DNA of 64,000 nucleotides from Corynebacterium freiburgense (GTDB lineage Bacteria > Actinomycetota > Actinomycetes > Mycobacteriales > Mycobacteriaceae): positions 930,001-994,000 of the forward strand of contig NZ_CP047355.1 of NCBI RefSeq assembly GCF_030408815.1, in the 5' to 3' direction. The notes under the pieces are model-generated. The model was not told where the DNA came from. It did not search any database and saw only the letters and a program-made list of their open reading frames with translations. Each line of letters starts with the position of its first letter. Position 1 is the first letter of the stretch. A program made the translations under genes and the position numbers. Below, one piece after another: positions 42,403 to 52,759 of this stretch.

Positions 42403-43386
42403 TTATTGAAGATACGGCTGCCAAAGTTCATAGCTCTCCCAATCCTGCGGAACTCCCAGTGATTCCACTGACACGAATTGTGAATTGGGAAAGCCTCGCA
42501 ATAGTGCGCATGTTCGTGACGCCCATTCGTTGTTCGGGTCGATAAGCGGCAACATGTATGCGATTACCGCGAGGACATTGTATGTACCGAAATTACTTTT
42601 TGCGGTGTGTAGTTTGCGCAGGTGATCTAGCGGCGGAACTTGTCCGAGTTTCGGACGTGCGGGTGCGTTCTGCAGTTTGCGATTGAACAGGCGTGCGTGG
42701 TGGGCGGTGAGGTTTCGCGCGTAATTGAGGCTGGCGAGCCAACTGGCCATCAGATACTTCGTTGGCACTCCGAAAGAGTTGGCGATTTCATCTGCAAGTT
42801 CTTGGGTGAGATTCCGATACAGGTTTGAAAGCTGGCCTAATTCCAAAATCTCGCACAGAACCCAAATGGGAATTCGATTATCACCGTTGTCTTCGAATTG
42901 TTTGACGAGACGTTCGTCTGCGTCTTCTTTCCGCTTATTGACGCCCTGGAGCCACATCACGTGCTTGCTTGGGGCTGGCCACCGCGTATCTGTGTGCTGT
43001 GTTGTGAATTTCTCAATGAAATTCACGTCGCGTTCGTGTGCATACGGATCGTTGCAACCTAGGATGTATCCAATTCGCATGCGGGCGGCTATTTCGATTC
43101 GCTCAATGCCTTCCAGAATGTGCATGCGTAACTGCCGATCGAAATCGATAATATCTTCGGCGTGTTGGAGTGTGGTGCCGGGTTGATACTGGTTCAGTAT
43201 TCGCAGCTGAGTGTGTCCTTCGGCATCTTGATATTGCTCTGATTGGAGAAAAGGGTAGAGGTATCCTGTGAGCCGGTAGTATCCAATTGCTTTAAGAACG
43301 GTAGCGGCACGTTGTTCATCATCAATGGAAACTCCGCGGTCCATCAGCAGTTGAATTTGTTCACCCACCGTGAGCCAAGACTTCAT
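42403..43386 (-). CDS. Abi_2 family (AbiD/F-like) protein with HEPN-type motif
   Basis: The protein has 327 residues. The start LTVGEQIQLLMDRGVSI, IGYYRLTGYLYPFL and DFDRQLRMHILEGIERIEIAARMRIGY are typical of the Abi_2 abortive-infection family. RNLTAHHARLFNR (Arg224, His229) has the R-X4-H pattern of HEPN RNases. An abortive-infection or toxin RNase role is inferred from family. It has no partner antitoxin gene next to it. It is the first of several defence-type genes to 52.8 kb. Confidence 0.85.
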   Translation of the reverse strand: MKSWLTVGEQIQLLMDRGVSIDDEQRAATVLKAIGYYRLTGYLYPFLQSEQYQDAEGHTQLRILNQYQPGTTLQHAEDIIDFDRQLRMHILEGIERIEIAARMRIGYILGCNDPYAHERDVNFIEKFTTQHTDTRWPAPSKHVMWLQGVNKRKEDADERLVKQFEDNGDNRIPIWVLCEILELGQLSNLYRNLTQELADEIANSFGVPTKYLMASWLASLNYARNLTAHHARLFNRKLQNAPARPKLGQVPPLDHLRKLHTAKSNFGTYNVLAVIAYMLPLIDPNNEWASRTCALLRGFPNSQFVSVESLGVPQDWESYELWQPYLQ

Positions 43387-46045: not shown

Positions 46046-47272
46046 GTGAAGAATGGCGAGAATGCACTGATGAATCAGCCCATGCTACATAAGCCAGCAG
46101 TGGATCTTGCTGGGGCTTCGATTCGTCCAGACGATACGGGAGGATTTTTAAAGAATGGGTATAGCGCAGGAAATAAACCCATCAAGATTGAGGGCAATGA
46201 TGCGTTATTTTTAGGGGCGGACAAAGATACAACTACTGTTGTGGCAATAAAAATGGAGCTAGCAGATTCGGGTGATAGTGGTACGGCATTCTTGGAGGCG
46301 TACGATACGTCAACCTTGGAGCAGAAATACAGCCACGAAGTATTTGTTTGTAGTGACGCTTCAGCTAATGATTTGGTGTATTGCTCATTTCGGCAGGAAC
46401 CGGGGATTTTCGCGTTGGATGTGAAAACTGGGGAGCGAGTTGCCGAGTACCCTCGTGAAATCGTTGAAGGAATCACCCAATACTATGGCACGGTTGATGG
46501 AAACGACATTGTCCTGATGCCTAAGGTAAGGGGCGCGTTAATTGTCTTATCGCTGGCGGCGGTGAACGATGGCCAAATTTTCTGGGAAAAGGAATACGAT
46601 ATATTCCCTGAGTGTGCGTATATCTCGAGCAGGTCGAAAGTATTTTGTGAAGAAGTTTTGGAAGAAAATAGTGACTTCAACCCGAAAGCAAGAATCGATA
46701 TTCTCGATGCAAAGACCGGGCAAGTAACGCATAGTCACGAGACGAACAACCATACTATTCCGCTGGAAGATGGTTGGGCGGAGGAGCAGCCTACAAACGA
46801 AGAACAGCAGGCATTCCGGGAGCAACAGAAGCTTACGGATATGTTGGGGCCGAACAATGAAGGCCAGGGGATGTATCAAGGATTTCAGTTACGAAATGTT
46901 GATTTGAGCAGATATTTTCTGAATGTAAAGAACACTGATAAGTACTTCTATATGGCACCGAATGAAACGATTGTGTCAGTGTCAGAGGACGGAAGGCTCG
47001 TGTTGTTCGAAGATCTTGATACCGGAAAACACTGGATTTACGATTCCGAAAAAGGCACGACAATTATGACGACTGAAGGCGGGAAGACTCATGCTGGCGT
47101 GCCGTACGGTATGAACGGAGGTGTGAATCGTCGGACGACTATGCACAATCCTTTGATTGATTCACCAACAGTGATCAATGGTATTTTTGCGGTCCGGGCA
47201 GCGCAACCATCAGATGGGAAAGCTAGTCACGTGAGAACAGCATTGACTATTTATGTGCCCGAACGATTGTAG
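46046..47272 (+). CDS. PQQ-like beta-propeller protein without signal peptide
   Basis: The protein has 408 residues. Repeated blades such as EAYDTSTLEQKYSHEVFV, FALDVKTGERVAEYP, DILDAKTGQVTHSHE and FEDLDTGKHWIYDSE fit a PQQ/WD-like propeller. The start (MKNGENALMNQP) has no signal or membrane segment, although such propellers in this genus are usually secreted. It may therefore be N-terminally truncated or cytoplasmic. It uses a GTG at 46046 (ATG 46070 is an alternative). It is followed by the cyclase gene after 84 bp. The function is unknown. Confidence 0.6.
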   Translation: MKNGENALMNQPMLHKPAVDLAGASIRPDDTGGFLKNGYSAGNKPIKIEGNDALFLGADKDTTTVVAIKMELADSGDSGTAFLEAYDTSTLEQKYSHEVFVCSDASANDLVYCSFRQEPGIFALDVKTGERVAEYPREIVEGITQYYGTVDGNDIVLMPKVRGALIVLSLAAVNDGQIFWEKEYDIFPECAYISSRSKVFCEEVLEENSDFNPKARIDILDAKTGQVTHSHETNNHTIPLEDGWAEEQPTNEEQQAFREQQKLTDMLGPNNEGQGMYQGFQLRNVDLSRYFLNVKNTDKYFYMAPNETIVSVSEDGRLVLFEDLDTGKHWIYDSEKGTTIMTTEGGKTHAGVPYGMNGGVNRRTTMHNPLIDSPTVINGIFAVRAAQPSDGKASHVRTALTIYVPERL

Positions 47273-47356
47273 GCGAGCACGTCGATCTGCTTGGTGCTCC
47301 AGGGGTGGGCGTACATTGGGGGTGGAGCAGTCTTGAAATGGCAAGGGGTACGTCAC

Positions 47357-48082
47357 GTGGAACCAGAGTTTAAAGCACACAATTTTATTCATGGCGCGGA
47401 GCGGATGCGCATGATATTGGATCAGACTGAATTAGAGTTTCCGGAACTTGATACGTTGCCGACACCGAATTGTTTGACCTTTTATAAGGGTGTCGCTGCT
47501 CGTGCCGTTGTGGTGTTTGCGGATATTCGGAATTCCCAAGATTTGCCTCTAGTCATGGATCGGACATCACTAGCAAAACTCTATAGTGCCTTTGTGGGCG
47601 AAGTGATGGCCGTGTTTTCCGGGGAGCATCATTGCCAAGACGTGAATGTAGTGGGAGATAATATTTGGGCGGTGTTTCGTGCCCCACTGCGGGAGGATAT
47701 TGACCGGGTATTTCGCTGCGTGAAAGTTGCGCATTCAATGGTGATTATTTTGAATAGGGAATTGCAATACCGGGAGCTTTCTCCAATCGAAGTTGGTTTT
47801 GGTATTGCATGGGGTGACATTATTATGAACCGTCCAGCGACGTTATGTAGAGAGCGCAATAACGTGGTGTATAGCGGGGAGGTCATTAATCGTTCCGCGG
47901 CGCTTGCAGCACAGGCGTCGGCAACGCACGCTGACCACCCATTAATGCTCGATGCCACGATCTATGAAAACCTCAATAGCGAGCATCAACAATGGTTAAC
48001 CTGGAACGAGCGCACAGAGTGTTGGCACGGAAATGTGGTTGATGACTATATCAATGCGTGGACCTTGGTAAATTACGATTAA
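47357..48082 (+). CDS. class III nucleotide cyclase, Pycsar PycC-like
   Basis: The protein has 241 residues and consists of one cyclase domain. The first metal Asp is in VVFADIRNS (Asp56) and the second in VVGDNIWAVF (Asp101). GIAWGDIIM and VVYSGEVINRSAALAAQA complete the domain. The order TPNCLTFYKG - ADIRNS - LAKLYSAFVGEVMAV - GDNIWAVF - IEVGFGIAWG - YSGEVINRSA - ATIYENL is that of PycC uridylate/cytidylate cyclases from Pycsar anti-phage systems. The GTG at 47357 has AAGGGG eight bases upstream. The usual PycTIR or PycTM effector is not beside it; a permease-like gene follows by 11 bp. Confidence 0.7.
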   Translation: MEPEFKAHNFIHGAERMRMILDQTELEFPELDTLPTPNCLTFYKGVAARAVVVFADIRNSQDLPLVMDRTSLAKLYSAFVGEVMAVFSGEHHCQDVNVVGDNIWAVFRAPLREDIDRVFRCVKVAHSMVIILNRELQYRELSPIEVGFGIAWGDIIMNRPATLCRERNNVVYSGEVINRSAALAAQASATHADHPLMLDATIYENLNSEHQQWLTWNERTECWHGNVVDDYINAWTLVNYD

Positions 48083-48093
48083 TTACACGATCG

Positions 48094-49089
48094 ATGGTGA
48101 AGCGGATTGTTGAATGGTGTGACCACTACCAGGTGCCCTTGTATCTTGGTGCGATGTTCAGCGGCGCTGTCGCTGGATTATGGTTCCCTGGTGCATGGTT
48201 CGATTATGGTGTTCAACCTTCATTGATGATGTTGCTGTATGCAACGTTTATGGCAGTGCCATTTCGCAGAATATTGGAATCGTTCACTGATATCCGATTT
48301 CTTGCAAGTTTGTTATTCCTGAACTTTGTTGTGGTTCCGTGTGTTGTGTACGTACTCACCCGGCACATTGCTGACGACGCCGCGCTGCTCATTGGTGTGC
48401 TATTTGTGTTGCTGACTCCATGCGTAGATTACGTCATGGTATTTACGCGATTAGCAGGTGGCCATTGGCAAAAGATTCTTGCGGCAACACCATTGTTATT
48501 GTTGCTGCAATTCCTTTTCTTGCCTGTGTATCTGGCGTTGATGGGCGCGGCTTCGGTAATGAATGTGGTGGAATGGCGACCGTTTGCGTACGCCTTAGTA
48601 GCCCTGATTGTCATTCCGTTAGGGCTATCGATGTTGACGCAACGTGTTAGTCATACTAAGGCAGCAATGTCTCTTCAAAGGGTGACTGAACAACTGATGG
48701 TCCCGTTCATGATGCTGACGTTGTTTTTTGTTGTCGCATCTCACGCCGAGGTGGTGGCTTCGCAATTGGCGTCGATTATGCGCGTAATACCGAGTTATTG
48801 CGCGTTTCTCGTGGTAATGCCAGCGGCGGCATTAGTCGTCAGTAGATTAGGTTCATTTGGTGCGGGCGAGCGTAGGGCGTTGGCGTTTTCCTGTTCTACA
48901 AGGAATTCACTGGTTGTATTGCCATTGGTGCTGGCCTTGCCAGCCACGTTGAACCTTGCTGTTGCAGTGGTGGTGACTCAAACGCTCGTCGAACTCGTGG
49001 GCATGATTGTGTTCGTTCGTCTGTTTCCGAAGCTCATTGTGGATCCGGTGGCGGATAGCCGCGCCGGAGGTTCATGCCGGAAATGGTAA
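48094..49089 (+). CDS. ACR3/BASS-type membrane permease
   Basis: The protein has 331 residues with ten hydrophobic helices. IGVLFVLLTPCVDYVMVFTRLAGG contains the helix-4 TPC(T/V)D motif of the ACR3 arsenite and bile acid:Na+ symporter group, and STRNSLVVLPLVLALP resembles the helix-9 crossover. Arsenite export or small-anion transport is possible. No arsR or arsC lies near. The ATG at 48094 follows the cyclase stop by 11 bp, so the two are probably co-transcribed; a role as effector of the cyclase is speculative. Confidence 0.7.
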   Translation: MVKRIVEWCDHYQVPLYLGAMFSGAVAGLWFPGAWFDYGVQPSLMMLLYATFMAVPFRRILESFTDIRFLASLLFLNFVVVPCVVYVLTRHIADDAALLIGVLFVLLTPCVDYVMVFTRLAGGHWQKILAATPLLLLLQFLFLPVYLALMGAASVMNVVEWRPFAYALVALIVIPLGLSMLTQRVSHTKAAMSLQRVTEQLMVPFMMLTLFFVVASHAEVVASQLASIMRVIPSYCAFLVVMPAAALVVSRLGSFGAGERRALAFSCSTRNSLVVLPLVLALPATLNLAVAVVVTQTLVELVGMIVFVRLFPKLIVDPVADSRAGGSCRKW

Positions 49090-49135: not shown

Positions 49136-49903
49136 ATGGCTCCTGGTTTTTGGTTCGCTTTTTCGCTCACGTTGTTGGCGGGATTATCCACCGGAATCGG
49201 CGGCTTGTTGAGCGTGCTGTGGCGTACGCCGGGGAATCGGTTTCTCGCTGGATCGCTCGGATTTTCGGCAGGCGTGATGCTCTATGTTTCGTTAGTTGAG
49301 TTACTCCCCGAGGGGATGAACTCAGCGGGGGCGGCAACTGCGGTGGCGGCATTTTTCGGCGGTATTGCAGTAATTGCGATTATTGATCGTCTCGTTCCAG
49401 AGCGGGTGAACCCTCACGAACCGGTGGTACTCGGCGCGCCACCATCGAAGCGCCACCTGATGCGTATGAGCATTATGACTGCGATCGCAATTGCGTTGCA
49501 TAATTTTCCTGAAGGATTCGCCACGTTTATCACCGCTCTCGAAGACCCAACTATTGCGGTCCCGATCGCGGTGGCCATTGCGATTCATAATATTCCGGAA
49601 GGGGTGGCTGTGGCTGTTCCTCTGCGCGAGGCAACGGGTTCGCGGCGAAAAGCGCTGTTGTGGTCGTTTCTTTCTGGACTCGCGGAACCAGCGGGTGCTC
49701 TAGTGGGATTCGCGCTGCTCATGGCACTTGTTGGGCCAGTATCCATGGGGATTGCACTTGCAGGAGTTGCTGGCGTGATGGTGTTTGTTTCATTGGATGA
49801 GTTATTGCCAACTGCGCAAGCTACCGGGGAGCATCACGTCGCTGTATATGGTTTGGTATTGGGTATGGCGGTGATGGCAACGAGTTTGTTGCTCCTGGCT
49901 TAA
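49136..49903 (+). CDS. zupT: ZIP-family metal transporter
   Basis: The protein has 255 residues and eight helices. The metal sites HNFPEG (helix 4) and HNIPEG (helix 5) are intact, and LSTGIGGLLSV and FSAGVMLYVSLVELLPEG match ZupT. It imports zinc and perhaps other divalent metals. It overlaps the convergent lipoprotein gene stop by 4 bp. The ATG at 49136 is the first in frame. Confidence 0.93.
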   Translation: MAPGFWFAFSLTLLAGLSTGIGGLLSVLWRTPGNRFLAGSLGFSAGVMLYVSLVELLPEGMNSAGAATAVAAFFGGIAVIAIIDRLVPERVNPHEPVVLGAPPSKRHLMRMSIMTAIAIALHNFPEGFATFITALEDPTIAVPIAVAIAIHNIPEGVAVAVPLREATGSRRKALLWSFLSGLAEPAGALVGFALLMALVGPVSMGIALAGVAGVMVFVSLDELLPTAQATGEHHVAVYGLVLGMAVMATSLLLLA

Positions 49904-50497: not shown

Positions 50498-52759
50498 CTA
50501 CTTTAGCGTGTCATGGCGCGGTGTAAAGCCTTCCTTAGCAATGATGCGTCGTCGACGTTGCGCCATTCGGTGTAGCCATGGAACTTGTTCATCCACATAG
50601 TCGTATACGAGTGCAGGATGGTCACTTCGAGTTACCCGACCAATTTGCTGAATGATTCTTCCTTTAAACGACACTGGAATAGTGAGAAATAGTGTGTTTA
50701 ATTGTGGCAGATCAAAACCTTCACCAGCCACTTTATCAATAGCGAGGAGGATAAACGGTCCTTCGAGTTTACGGAGAGTTTCTAACGTGGAACTTCGTTC
50801 TTGTGGTGGTAATTGGCCGTGCAATAAGAATATGGGTGTGGTTACTTGTTGTTGCAGAAGCTCTTGTAACAGGTGTAGATGTTCAATTCGATTACTGAGC
50901 ACCAGCGACGTTCTTCCTTCAGTTGCCGCTGAACAAATATCAGCAATGATGAGTGCATTACGGTCAGTATCAGTGGTGAGTTCACTGTAAATAGCGTTCA
51001 TGGAGGCGCCATCGGTGGCGGGTTCTTCGGTAATGAAGTTCGTGGTGCGGAGTACTATTTCGCGTTGGGCGACGCGTTCATGTATTGCTTGATGTCGGAT
51101 GGGGCCCAGTTGCATGGTGATGAGTTCATCCATGTGATCTGCGCGAAACGGCGTGGCGGTCAGGCCGAGCCAATATGGTGCCCGTGCGTCGGTGATGGCT
51201 GCTTCAGTGGCGGGAGAGGCGATCGAATGGCATTCATCCACGACGATATGATCATAATCATCAAGGACGCTAGTGTTTGCATCACGATGAGAAATGCTTT
51301 GCATCATAATGATGTCGATTTCTCCGGTCAGTTTGCGTTTTCCAGCTCCTAATTGGCCGGGTGTACAGCCGAGAAATTCACTAAGGCTGGTGCGCCATTG
51401 ATCAACCAATTCTTTCCGATTCACCAATACCGCCGTTGGCACGTTACGGTGGGCGATCATTGAGCATCCAAGTACAGTTTTCCCAAAACCTGGGGGTGCC
51501 ACAATGACACCAGTTCGATGTGGCGTTGTGTCTCGGAGTGCTCGTTGCTGGGGTGGTCGCAGTTTACCTGTAAATTCAAGTTGCAGCCGCTGCCGGGCGC
51601 GCTGCCGTTTAGTGTGCACCGTGGCACCTGCGGTTTCCAGTAGTTCAATGACTTCGTCGGTCAATCCGCGGGGCAGTTGTAATATGTTGTTTTCCTGGTG
51701 AAATCTGATGATGAGTCGGGGGATTCGGAACGTGCTAAATCGCTGCGCTTGTCTGCGATAAAATTCCGGGTTTGATAAGCAGGCGAGATGCTTCAGGCTG
51801 GCGATGATCGATGCGGGCAAACCATCCAAGGGGACACGAAGGTGCGAATCGACGCTGATATCAACGGTCGCGGTGGTGTGTAGTTCCGATTTGCGTGGTT
51901 TTGGAACGGTGAGTTCGCTTGCTGGGCCGATAATCGGTTCATCAAAAACTACCGACTGGATATCGAGTGGCTTGACGGCAGATAATGCTGAAAATTGATC
52001 GTCATACGGCTGCCAGGTATTCGGATCTACAAACACCGTCGTGCCTTGGCGGCGGTGCGTACCTTGGAGTGGGAGCGCGATAAGGTTTCCTAGCCGACCA
52101 CGTCCTTTTGAACGTATCGGAAGTGTGTCTTGAGCTGGGAAGAAGCGGTCATAGCTTGTGAAGTCCATATTGGGTTCTTGCGCCATAGCCTCCCGCAATA
52201 ATTGAAATCCCAGCGCGCGTGCTTGACGGGCAGGAACTGGTTCCTCGAAGAAAATCCACACGTGCGCGCCAGCTCCGGAGGAAGAAATCTCAACGAGATT
52301 ATCGACGCCCCGTGCGGCGCAGGCGTCAGCGTATGCTCGGGCGTTTTGGCGCCACAGTGCGTCGTCGAAATCGCAGGCTAAAAAATGGGTTGAGTCATCC
52401 GGCAACATCGGATACACACCGATGAATTGATTTCCACGCAAATGTTGGTCGATCACGTTGTCGGTGAGGGGAAGGTATTCCTCGGAGCCGCGGAATGGGG
52501 TGGCAGGACTCCAACCTTTCCGCTCGCTATGTTGCCATTTGTAGGCATAGACGTCAGTTCGACCACGGAATCGAGAGGTAAATAGGGAAATTTTGGCTGC
52601 TAGTGGTGCCTTTGCGTGAACATCGGTAGGCGGCGGCGCCTCGGGTGTGTGTCGCGGCGTCGATACGCCCTGCGCCTGTTCAAGTTGCTGTACCTGCGCG
52701 CGCAGTTCTCCGAGCTGGCGTTCGATTGAATCCAGGAGTCGATGTATATCGGAGAACAT
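50498..52759 (-). CDS. TOTE-type archaeo-eukaryotic primase fused to SF2 helicase
   Basis: The protein has 753 residues. A short coiled coil (about 8-30) precedes a primase domain: GRTDVYAYKW, metal motif ACDFDD (Asp130/Asp132), SSSGAGAHVWIFF with the catalytic His166, YDRFFPAQD, LGNLIALPLQG. The C-terminal helicase has Walker A APPGFGKT (421-428), DECH (508-511), GLTATPFR, and motif VI QQIGRVTRS. The fusion is that of TOTE conflict systems, thought to act in defence against invaders or in DNA processing. No separate nuclease domain is seen. The ATG at 52759 follows a -10-like TATGAT by eight bases. No dedicated partner gene is visible. Confidence 0.85.
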   Translation of the reverse strand: MFSDIHRLLDSIERQLGELRAQVQQLEQAQGVSTPRHTPEAPPPTDVHAKAPLAAKISLFTSRFRGRTDVYAYKWQHSERKGWSPATPFRGSEEYLPLTDNVIDQHLRGNQFIGVYPMLPDDSTHFLACDFDDALWRQNARAYADACAARGVDNLVEISSSGAGAHVWIFFEEPVPARQARALGFQLLREAMAQEPNMDFTSYDRFFPAQDTLPIRSKGRGRLGNLIALPLQGTHRRQGTTVFVDPNTWQPYDDQFSALSAVKPLDIQSVVFDEPIIGPASELTVPKPRKSELHTTATVDISVDSHLRVPLDGLPASIIASLKHLACLSNPEFYRRQAQRFSTFRIPRLIIRFHQENNILQLPRGLTDEVIELLETAGATVHTKRQRARQRLQLEFTGKLRPPQQRALRDTTPHRTGVIVAPPGFGKTVLGCSMIAHRNVPTAVLVNRKELVDQWRTSLSEFLGCTPGQLGAGKRKLTGEIDIIMMQSISHRDANTSVLDDYDHIVVDECHSIASPATEAAITDARAPYWLGLTATPFRADHMDELITMQLGPIRHQAIHERVAQREIVLRTTNFITEEPATDGASMNAIYSELTTDTDRNALIIADICSAATEGRTSLVLSNRIEHLHLLQELLQQQVTTPIFLLHGQLPPQERSSTLETLRKLEGPFILLAIDKVAGEGFDLPQLNTLFLTIPVSFKGRIIQQIGRVTRSDHPALVYDYVDEQVPWLHRMAQRRRRIIAKEGFTPRHDTLK

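Follow-up and report, generated by a model that had tools for sequence, protein, structure and literature searches.

The window, a 64,000-nucleotide stretch of the Corynebacterium freiburgense genome (contig NZ_CP047355.1), carries on its forward strand a nucleotide cyclase gene followed closely by the genes for a permease and a metal transporter. The features relevant here are:

46046..47272, + strand: upstream gene, 408 aa, without a Pfam family over the cut-off in the profile search
47312..47317, + strand: TACATT block, candidate -10 element of the cyclase–permease unit, suggested by the three-lineage upstream alignment
47343..47348, + strand: Shine-Dalgarno sequence AAGGGG of the cyclase, from the three-lineage alignment
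47357..48082, + strand: PycC-family class III nucleotide cyclase, 241 aa, GTG start, stop at 48082
47522..47524 and 47657..47659, + strand: metal aspartates D56 and D101 of the cyclase, from the alignment
47888..47890 and 47900..47902, + strand: cyclase residues N178 and A182 (His in 120/120 relatives), from the alignment
48094..49089, + strand: BASS/SBF-family permease (ACR3-like subfamily), 331 aa, ASBT fold, ATG at 48094
49136..49903, + strand: zupT-like ZIP metal transporter (NCBIfam PRK04201.1, E 1.1e-99)

We surveyed 242 Corynebacterium genomes with the PADLOC PycC model PDLC02368, taking E 2e-59 or better as a strong match. Eight genomes had such a match, four of them of the window type: the window genome itself (G000), G190, whose cyclase is identical and which we take to be the same species, G025 (76% cyclase identity to the window) and G196 (72–73%). 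These four genomes probably represent three species, and the three lineages carrying the pair probably descend from one event.

The spacing of 11 nt given for the cyclase and permease by an initial annotation of this DNA was borne out (48082 to 48094); that annotation passed over the zupT-like gene, which starts 46 nt past the permease, as well as the loss of a basic active-site residue considered below. The cyclase GTG at 47357 is supported as the start by the two relatives, which have an ATG at the same codon behind similar Shine-Dalgarno sequences (AAGGGG in the window; GAGGGG and AAGGGG in the relatives). Approximately 40 nt upstream of this start, the TACATT of the window is matched by TAGATT in both relatives, and from the alignment this block could plausibly serve the two genes as their -10 element; a generic promoter scan listed no site at 47312..47317. 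A terminator scan likewise listed nothing between the two genes in the window, and we infer that they are probably transcribed from one promoter. As a TATTA block precedes the zupT ATG in all three lineages, zupT is possibly on a transcript of its own.

The region immediately upstream of the cyclase in the window differs from that of G025 and G196, both of which have a DUF218 gene ahead of the cyclase, with an ABM-domain gene in G025. Nothing in the G025 and G196 stretches matches the 46046..47272 gene, which is therefore not a constant partner of the cyclase; we rejected it as a candidate effector on the same ground. Even in the near-identical G190 the corresponding gene codes for 477 aa (L036:10196-11629) as against 408 aa in the window, with a differing internal segment. 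Further afield, the window features an Abi_2/AbiD-type abortive infection gene (42403-43386, - strand; Pfam 2.4e-47, PADLOC 1.1e-57), unmatched in the G025 and G196 stretches compared, and a TOTE-type primase and helicase gene (50498-52759, - strand) between a small gene and pit. The latter is present in G025 (66%) and unmatched in the G196 stretch, so that this spot takes in conflict-type genes.

PycC ancestry and the missing PycTM

The cyclase is genuinely related to PycC, the cyclase of Pycsar systems. It matches PDLC02368 with an E-value of 1.6e-68 and four further PycC models with E-values of 4e-15 to 8e-10, and its nearest fold is the uridylate cyclase BcPycC (PDB 7r65). In the phylogenetic tree the three linked cyclases join 27 other rows of the subfamily with support of 98/99, and seven of these 27 have an adjoining PycTM (L032, L035, L102, L103, L104, L106, L107). 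Seven rows of housekeeping cyclases and 1wc0 form one separate group (100/99); with midpoint rooting, the long branches of 7r65, 8jsz, L039 and the second L035 cyclase attach to the housekeeping side of the tree, which thus does not show a single PycC clade. From this tree we rejected an identity as a housekeeping adenylate cyclase. The residues agree: housekeeping class III cyclases have Lys at the fourth residue ahead of the second metal Asp and Arg at the fourth past the catalytic Asn, as do seven Corynebacterium housekeeping cyclases and 1wc0, whereas the window cyclase has N97 and A182. The initial annotation, which had singled out a 241-aa cyclase with both metal aspartates and proposed comparisons with PycC and housekeeping enzymes, is upheld in each of these respects. 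The protein shares with the PDLC02368 subfamily, further members of which come from actinobacteria, Corynebacterium among them, its cyclase family, length, fold, metal site, F54 and W104. Among the PycC hallmarks, the profile match, the PycC grouping and both metal aspartates are present, and the basic residue at position 182 is absent. We also considered a phage-borne cassette and rejected it: no close relative of the cyclase was found in viral_contigs, and the one distant phage match has a PycTM of its own.

PMC11224242 names PycTM and PycTIR as Pycsar effectors, and such effectors are also treated in PMC9117128; PycTM is listed with PycC in a Paenarthrobacter (PMC11719660), and Pycsar is listed as a low-prevalence predicted system in Corynebacterium (PMC12542688). 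Of 18 subfamily loci other than the trio, an HMM search found a PycTM adjoining the cyclase in 17, five of the 17 matching by construction as the HMM was built from them (L032, L102, L103, L104, L106). It lies within 76 nt of the cyclase or overlaps it in 16 loci and at 1.9 kb in L102, with none in L105. Four of the 18 loci are the remaining strong Corynebacterium matches, six came from searches of the order and the phylum, seven belong to a set of 30 plasmid records and one is the phage record; some loci are mutually close relatives, the L116 match is weak (2e-8) and the L035 PycTM has a stop. The other 23 plasmid records, including the near-duplicates H4, H6 and H7, and the G133 locus, a weak match of a different class that also has a PycTM, lie outside this count.

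Several Pycsar loci feature two cyclase genes side by side (L035:9208-10728, L034:381-1913, and, resting on annotation, L106:3863-5681 and L107:2458-4729). In G001 and G154 the paired cyclases are convergent, the second of G001 belonging to another PycC group.

The window type departs from this pattern in having a permease downstream and no PycTM found. The Pfam PycTM model scored over its cut-off in all five other PycC-bearing Corynebacterium genomes searched (G163, G186, G154, G001, G133) versus none of the four pair-bearing genomes, of which G190 is only 88% complete. A PycTM recognizable in the window or elsewhere in the genome was rejected, as the PycTM searches returned none. CNBD, in turn, scored over the cut-off twice in each pair-bearing genome (4/4), in open frames of 228–232 and 633–678 aa. 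The PycTM or PycTIR effector by which we recognize a Pycsar system is hence missing here in searches that covered PycTM and CNBD. That the locus is half of an ordinary Pycsar system, with its PycTM or PycTIR encoded elsewhere in the genome, would fit the PycC profile match, and such a PycTM may be too divergent for the Pfam model. We nevertheless consider this very improbable, given the zero-of-four versus five-of-five contrast and the two putative CNBD proteins per genome.

A remodelled cyclase beside an ordinary permease

We compared the linked proteins column by column with their relatives, which for both the cyclase and the permease were the best-listed matches and thus a non-random sample. 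D56 and D101 are invariant across the 123 aligned cyclases, and F54, R58, S60, K74, Y76, N97, G100, W104 and N178 are likewise kept. Position 97 is Asn in the trio, as in 106/120 relatives (Ser in 14/120), versus Lys in 1wc0 and the genus's own cyclases. At the same time, the linked cyclases all differ from the 120 relatives at 55 of the 118 columns with at least 90% conservation. Changed in all three are H182, C102, S61, R77, R154, K159, A160, G161, G164 and I167, and DGNY at residues 2-5 is lost; K159, A160, G161 and G164 are present in 117 to 120 of the 120 relatives.

One of these changes is at position 182, four past the catalytic Asn, which is His in 120/120 relatives, Lys in 7r65, 8jsz and 6yii, and Arg in 1wc0, whereas the three linked cyclases have Ala, Thr and Thr. 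In two relatives from Bacillota plasmids, the residue at this place is Asn (L108) or Lys (L105). We take the residue at this position to stabilize the transition state and counted it as PycC-defining. In the comparison with BcPycC, a clade B cyclase, Ala thus stands in the window cyclase in place of Lys, and Asn at position 102 in place of R97; position 104 corresponds by offset to F109 of AnPycC. Base recognition is the role given to BcPycC R97 (UTP) and AnPycC F109 in PMC11224242.

The permease, by contrast, is unexceptional for its family. Pfam SBF matches it above the cut-off (E 2.5e-13), AlphaFold2 models it (pLDDT 91.9) with the ASBT (BASS) fold, and Foldseek aligns the model to ASBT_NM (PDB 3zux) with an E-value of 2.5e-7 and a TM-score of 0.76, so that both profile and fold, which it has in common with ASBT_NM, place it in BASS/SBF. 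Of the BASS/ACR3-type label it had been given, the BASS part is sound; an ACR3 arsenite exporter proper was rejected, as the protein scores 35.8 bits, far below the equivalog cut-off of 282.8. Neither an added sensing domain nor a new motif was found in the Pfam profiles, the conserved columns or the model. The three linked permeases all differ from the 72 other rows, one of which is the linked-type P0010, at only 2 of 105 columns with at least 90% conservation. Set against 55/118 for the cyclase, this indicates that the cyclase was remodelled and the permease left ordinary.

Loss of residues found in all 120 relatives, position 182 among them, puts the activity of the cyclase in doubt, and the protein is perhaps weakly catalytic or non-catalytic, as far as its residues can tell. 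This bears on the reading proposed with the initial annotation, in which an active pyrimidine cyclase makes cCMP or cUMP that opens the permease or is exported by it, the permease replacing PycTM as the effector of a variant Pycsar system. Its PycC grouping and gene linkage stand, and the PycC ancestry, the retained metal aspartates, F54 and W104, the Asn at position 97 unlike the Lys of 1wc0 and the genus's cyclases, the constancy of the permease as neighbour in three lineages and the other defence-type genes nearby all speak for it. Gating or export by a cyclic pyrimidine, however, needs an enzyme activity that the loss of the basic residue 182 and of K159, A160, G161 and G164 makes doubtful, and the permease shows no new domain or motif; we regard this model as unlikely.

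Linkage, synteny and selection

The permease adjoins the cyclase, and zupT follows in the same order, in all four genomes with this cyclase, the zupT of G190 being in two pieces; neither of the two outcomes that the initial annotation named as refuting, a housekeeping grouping of the cyclase and a permease unlinked in other genomes, was observed. With a PycC match of 1.6e-68 and adjacency kept in three lineages with cyclases 72–87% identical, the pair goes beyond chance. We found no comparable Pycsar cyclase–permease pair described among the titles and abstract starts listed in the literature search, with most subscription papers outside that search. In the window 11 nt separate the cyclase and the permease; the spacing is wider in the relatives, at 52 nt in G025 and about 55 nt in G196, the last assuming a start homologous to that of the window.

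Of the 242 Corynebacterium genomes, 65 have a member of the permease family (at 1e-20). At none of the 26 other permease loci examined do the flanks compared, of 1.5 kb or less, contain the cyclase or zupT. Conversely, neither the cyclase nor the permease lies within 1.5 kb at 27 other zupT loci (30 zupT loci examined out of 150 genomes with a match). Thus, both genes reached zupT in the ancestor of the clade, most simply together. The order of the downstream zupT, pit, DUF808 and P-type ATPase genes is also conserved, which makes the adjacency alone weak evidence of shared function.

At 8 of the 26 other corynebacterial permease loci (L048, L049, L051, L055, L057, L058, L061, L066), a gene for an MntP-type manganese exporter, assigned by similarity and confirmed by Pfam in five of the eight, lies directly beside the permease relative. 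The permease family hence keeps company with metal transporters, MntP-type elsewhere and zupT here.

The G025 permease (L037:10050-11021) runs out of frame near its end beside an intact cyclase. This form, P0010, represents five member sequences and may therefore be a real allele; P0006, an in-frame permease of the G025 type, represents twelve. In a quick tree of 61 rows, P0010 falls among the three linked permeases in a group with SH-aLRT support of 97. As it is a G025-type protein with an out-of-frame end, the four-row group consists of linked-type copies only, and we rejected non-monophyly of the linked permeases.

Nei–Gojobori (NG86) dN/dS values for the cyclase were 0.078/1.62 (G025–G196) and 0.193/2.18 (window–G196), much like the 0.095/1.97 of zupT (G025–G196); the computable permease pair gave 0.145/1.77. 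For G025 the in-frame part of the permease was used, and dS was saturated, giving no value, for three of the six pairwise comparisons made over these two genes. Where computable, these values indicate purifying selection on both genes, and on this measure the cyclase gene seems not to be in decay.

It is conceivable that the two are neighbours only, with an orphan PycC descendant acting alone, on a cytosolic target or a CNBD protein, and the permease unrelated. The absence of this cyclase from all 26 other permease loci, the syntenic downstream genes, the two CNBD matches in each of the four genomes and the out-of-frame G025 permease beside an intact cyclase favour this account. It fits less well with the arrival of both genes, most simply together, at a zupT locus type that has neither in 27 other instances, and with the 11-nt gap in the window without a listed terminator. 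We view it as somewhat unlikely.

A putative regulator of transport

The best explanation, which we advance tentatively and at somewhat less than even confidence, is a repurposed PycC that regulates the neighbouring permease, the two genes being kept together. Under this proposal, a Pycsar cyclase lacking its PycTM would have entered the zupT locus in a single Corynebacterium lineage, beside a BASS/ACR3-like permease, and the two would since have been kept side by side, probably under one promoter. The permease would most likely do the job of its family, moving a small anion or metabolite. No longer a trigger of cell death, the cyclase would most likely be a cytosolic nucleotide-binding regulator of transport, acting either by direct contact or by a cyclase activity that is slow or altered.

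For the former mode, SbtA–SbtB offers a works-like analogy, in which a transporter is under the control of a nucleotide-binding protein that touches it from the cytosol: SbtB is described as a small nucleotide-binding regulator that locks the SbtA bicarbonate transporter in this way (PMC10710835). The likeness might extend to mode of action, but SbtB is PII-like whereas the window protein is a cyclase, and SbtA is a weak fold match to the permease (E 0.04–0.09). Against the proposal of a repurposed PycC we count that only 4 genomes have this cyclase alongside a permease family found in 65 of 242, together with the wider gaps in G025 and G196, the frame break of the G025 permease, the syntenic downstream genes, the saturation of dS and the restriction of the pair to three lineages that probably trace to one event.

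In its broadest form, the pair may be a Pycsar enzyme domesticated from antiviral defence, its death effector dropped and a BASS transporter taken on as its output, whether as a nucleotide-regulated permease or as a cyclic-pyrimidine exporter or channel; we hold this possible but doubtful. If true, cCMP/cUMP signalling, or nucleotide sensing by PycC, would be part of ordinary transport physiology. A PycC under purifying selection, with its effector gone and a transporter alongside, would show a phage-defence signalling enzyme turned to another job, and the two-gene unit would make a small testable case for control of transport by cyclic pyrimidines or by a non-cyclizing PycC fold. Thus, the pair in this one small group of Corynebacterium suggests that a part of a defence system has been reused for another job.
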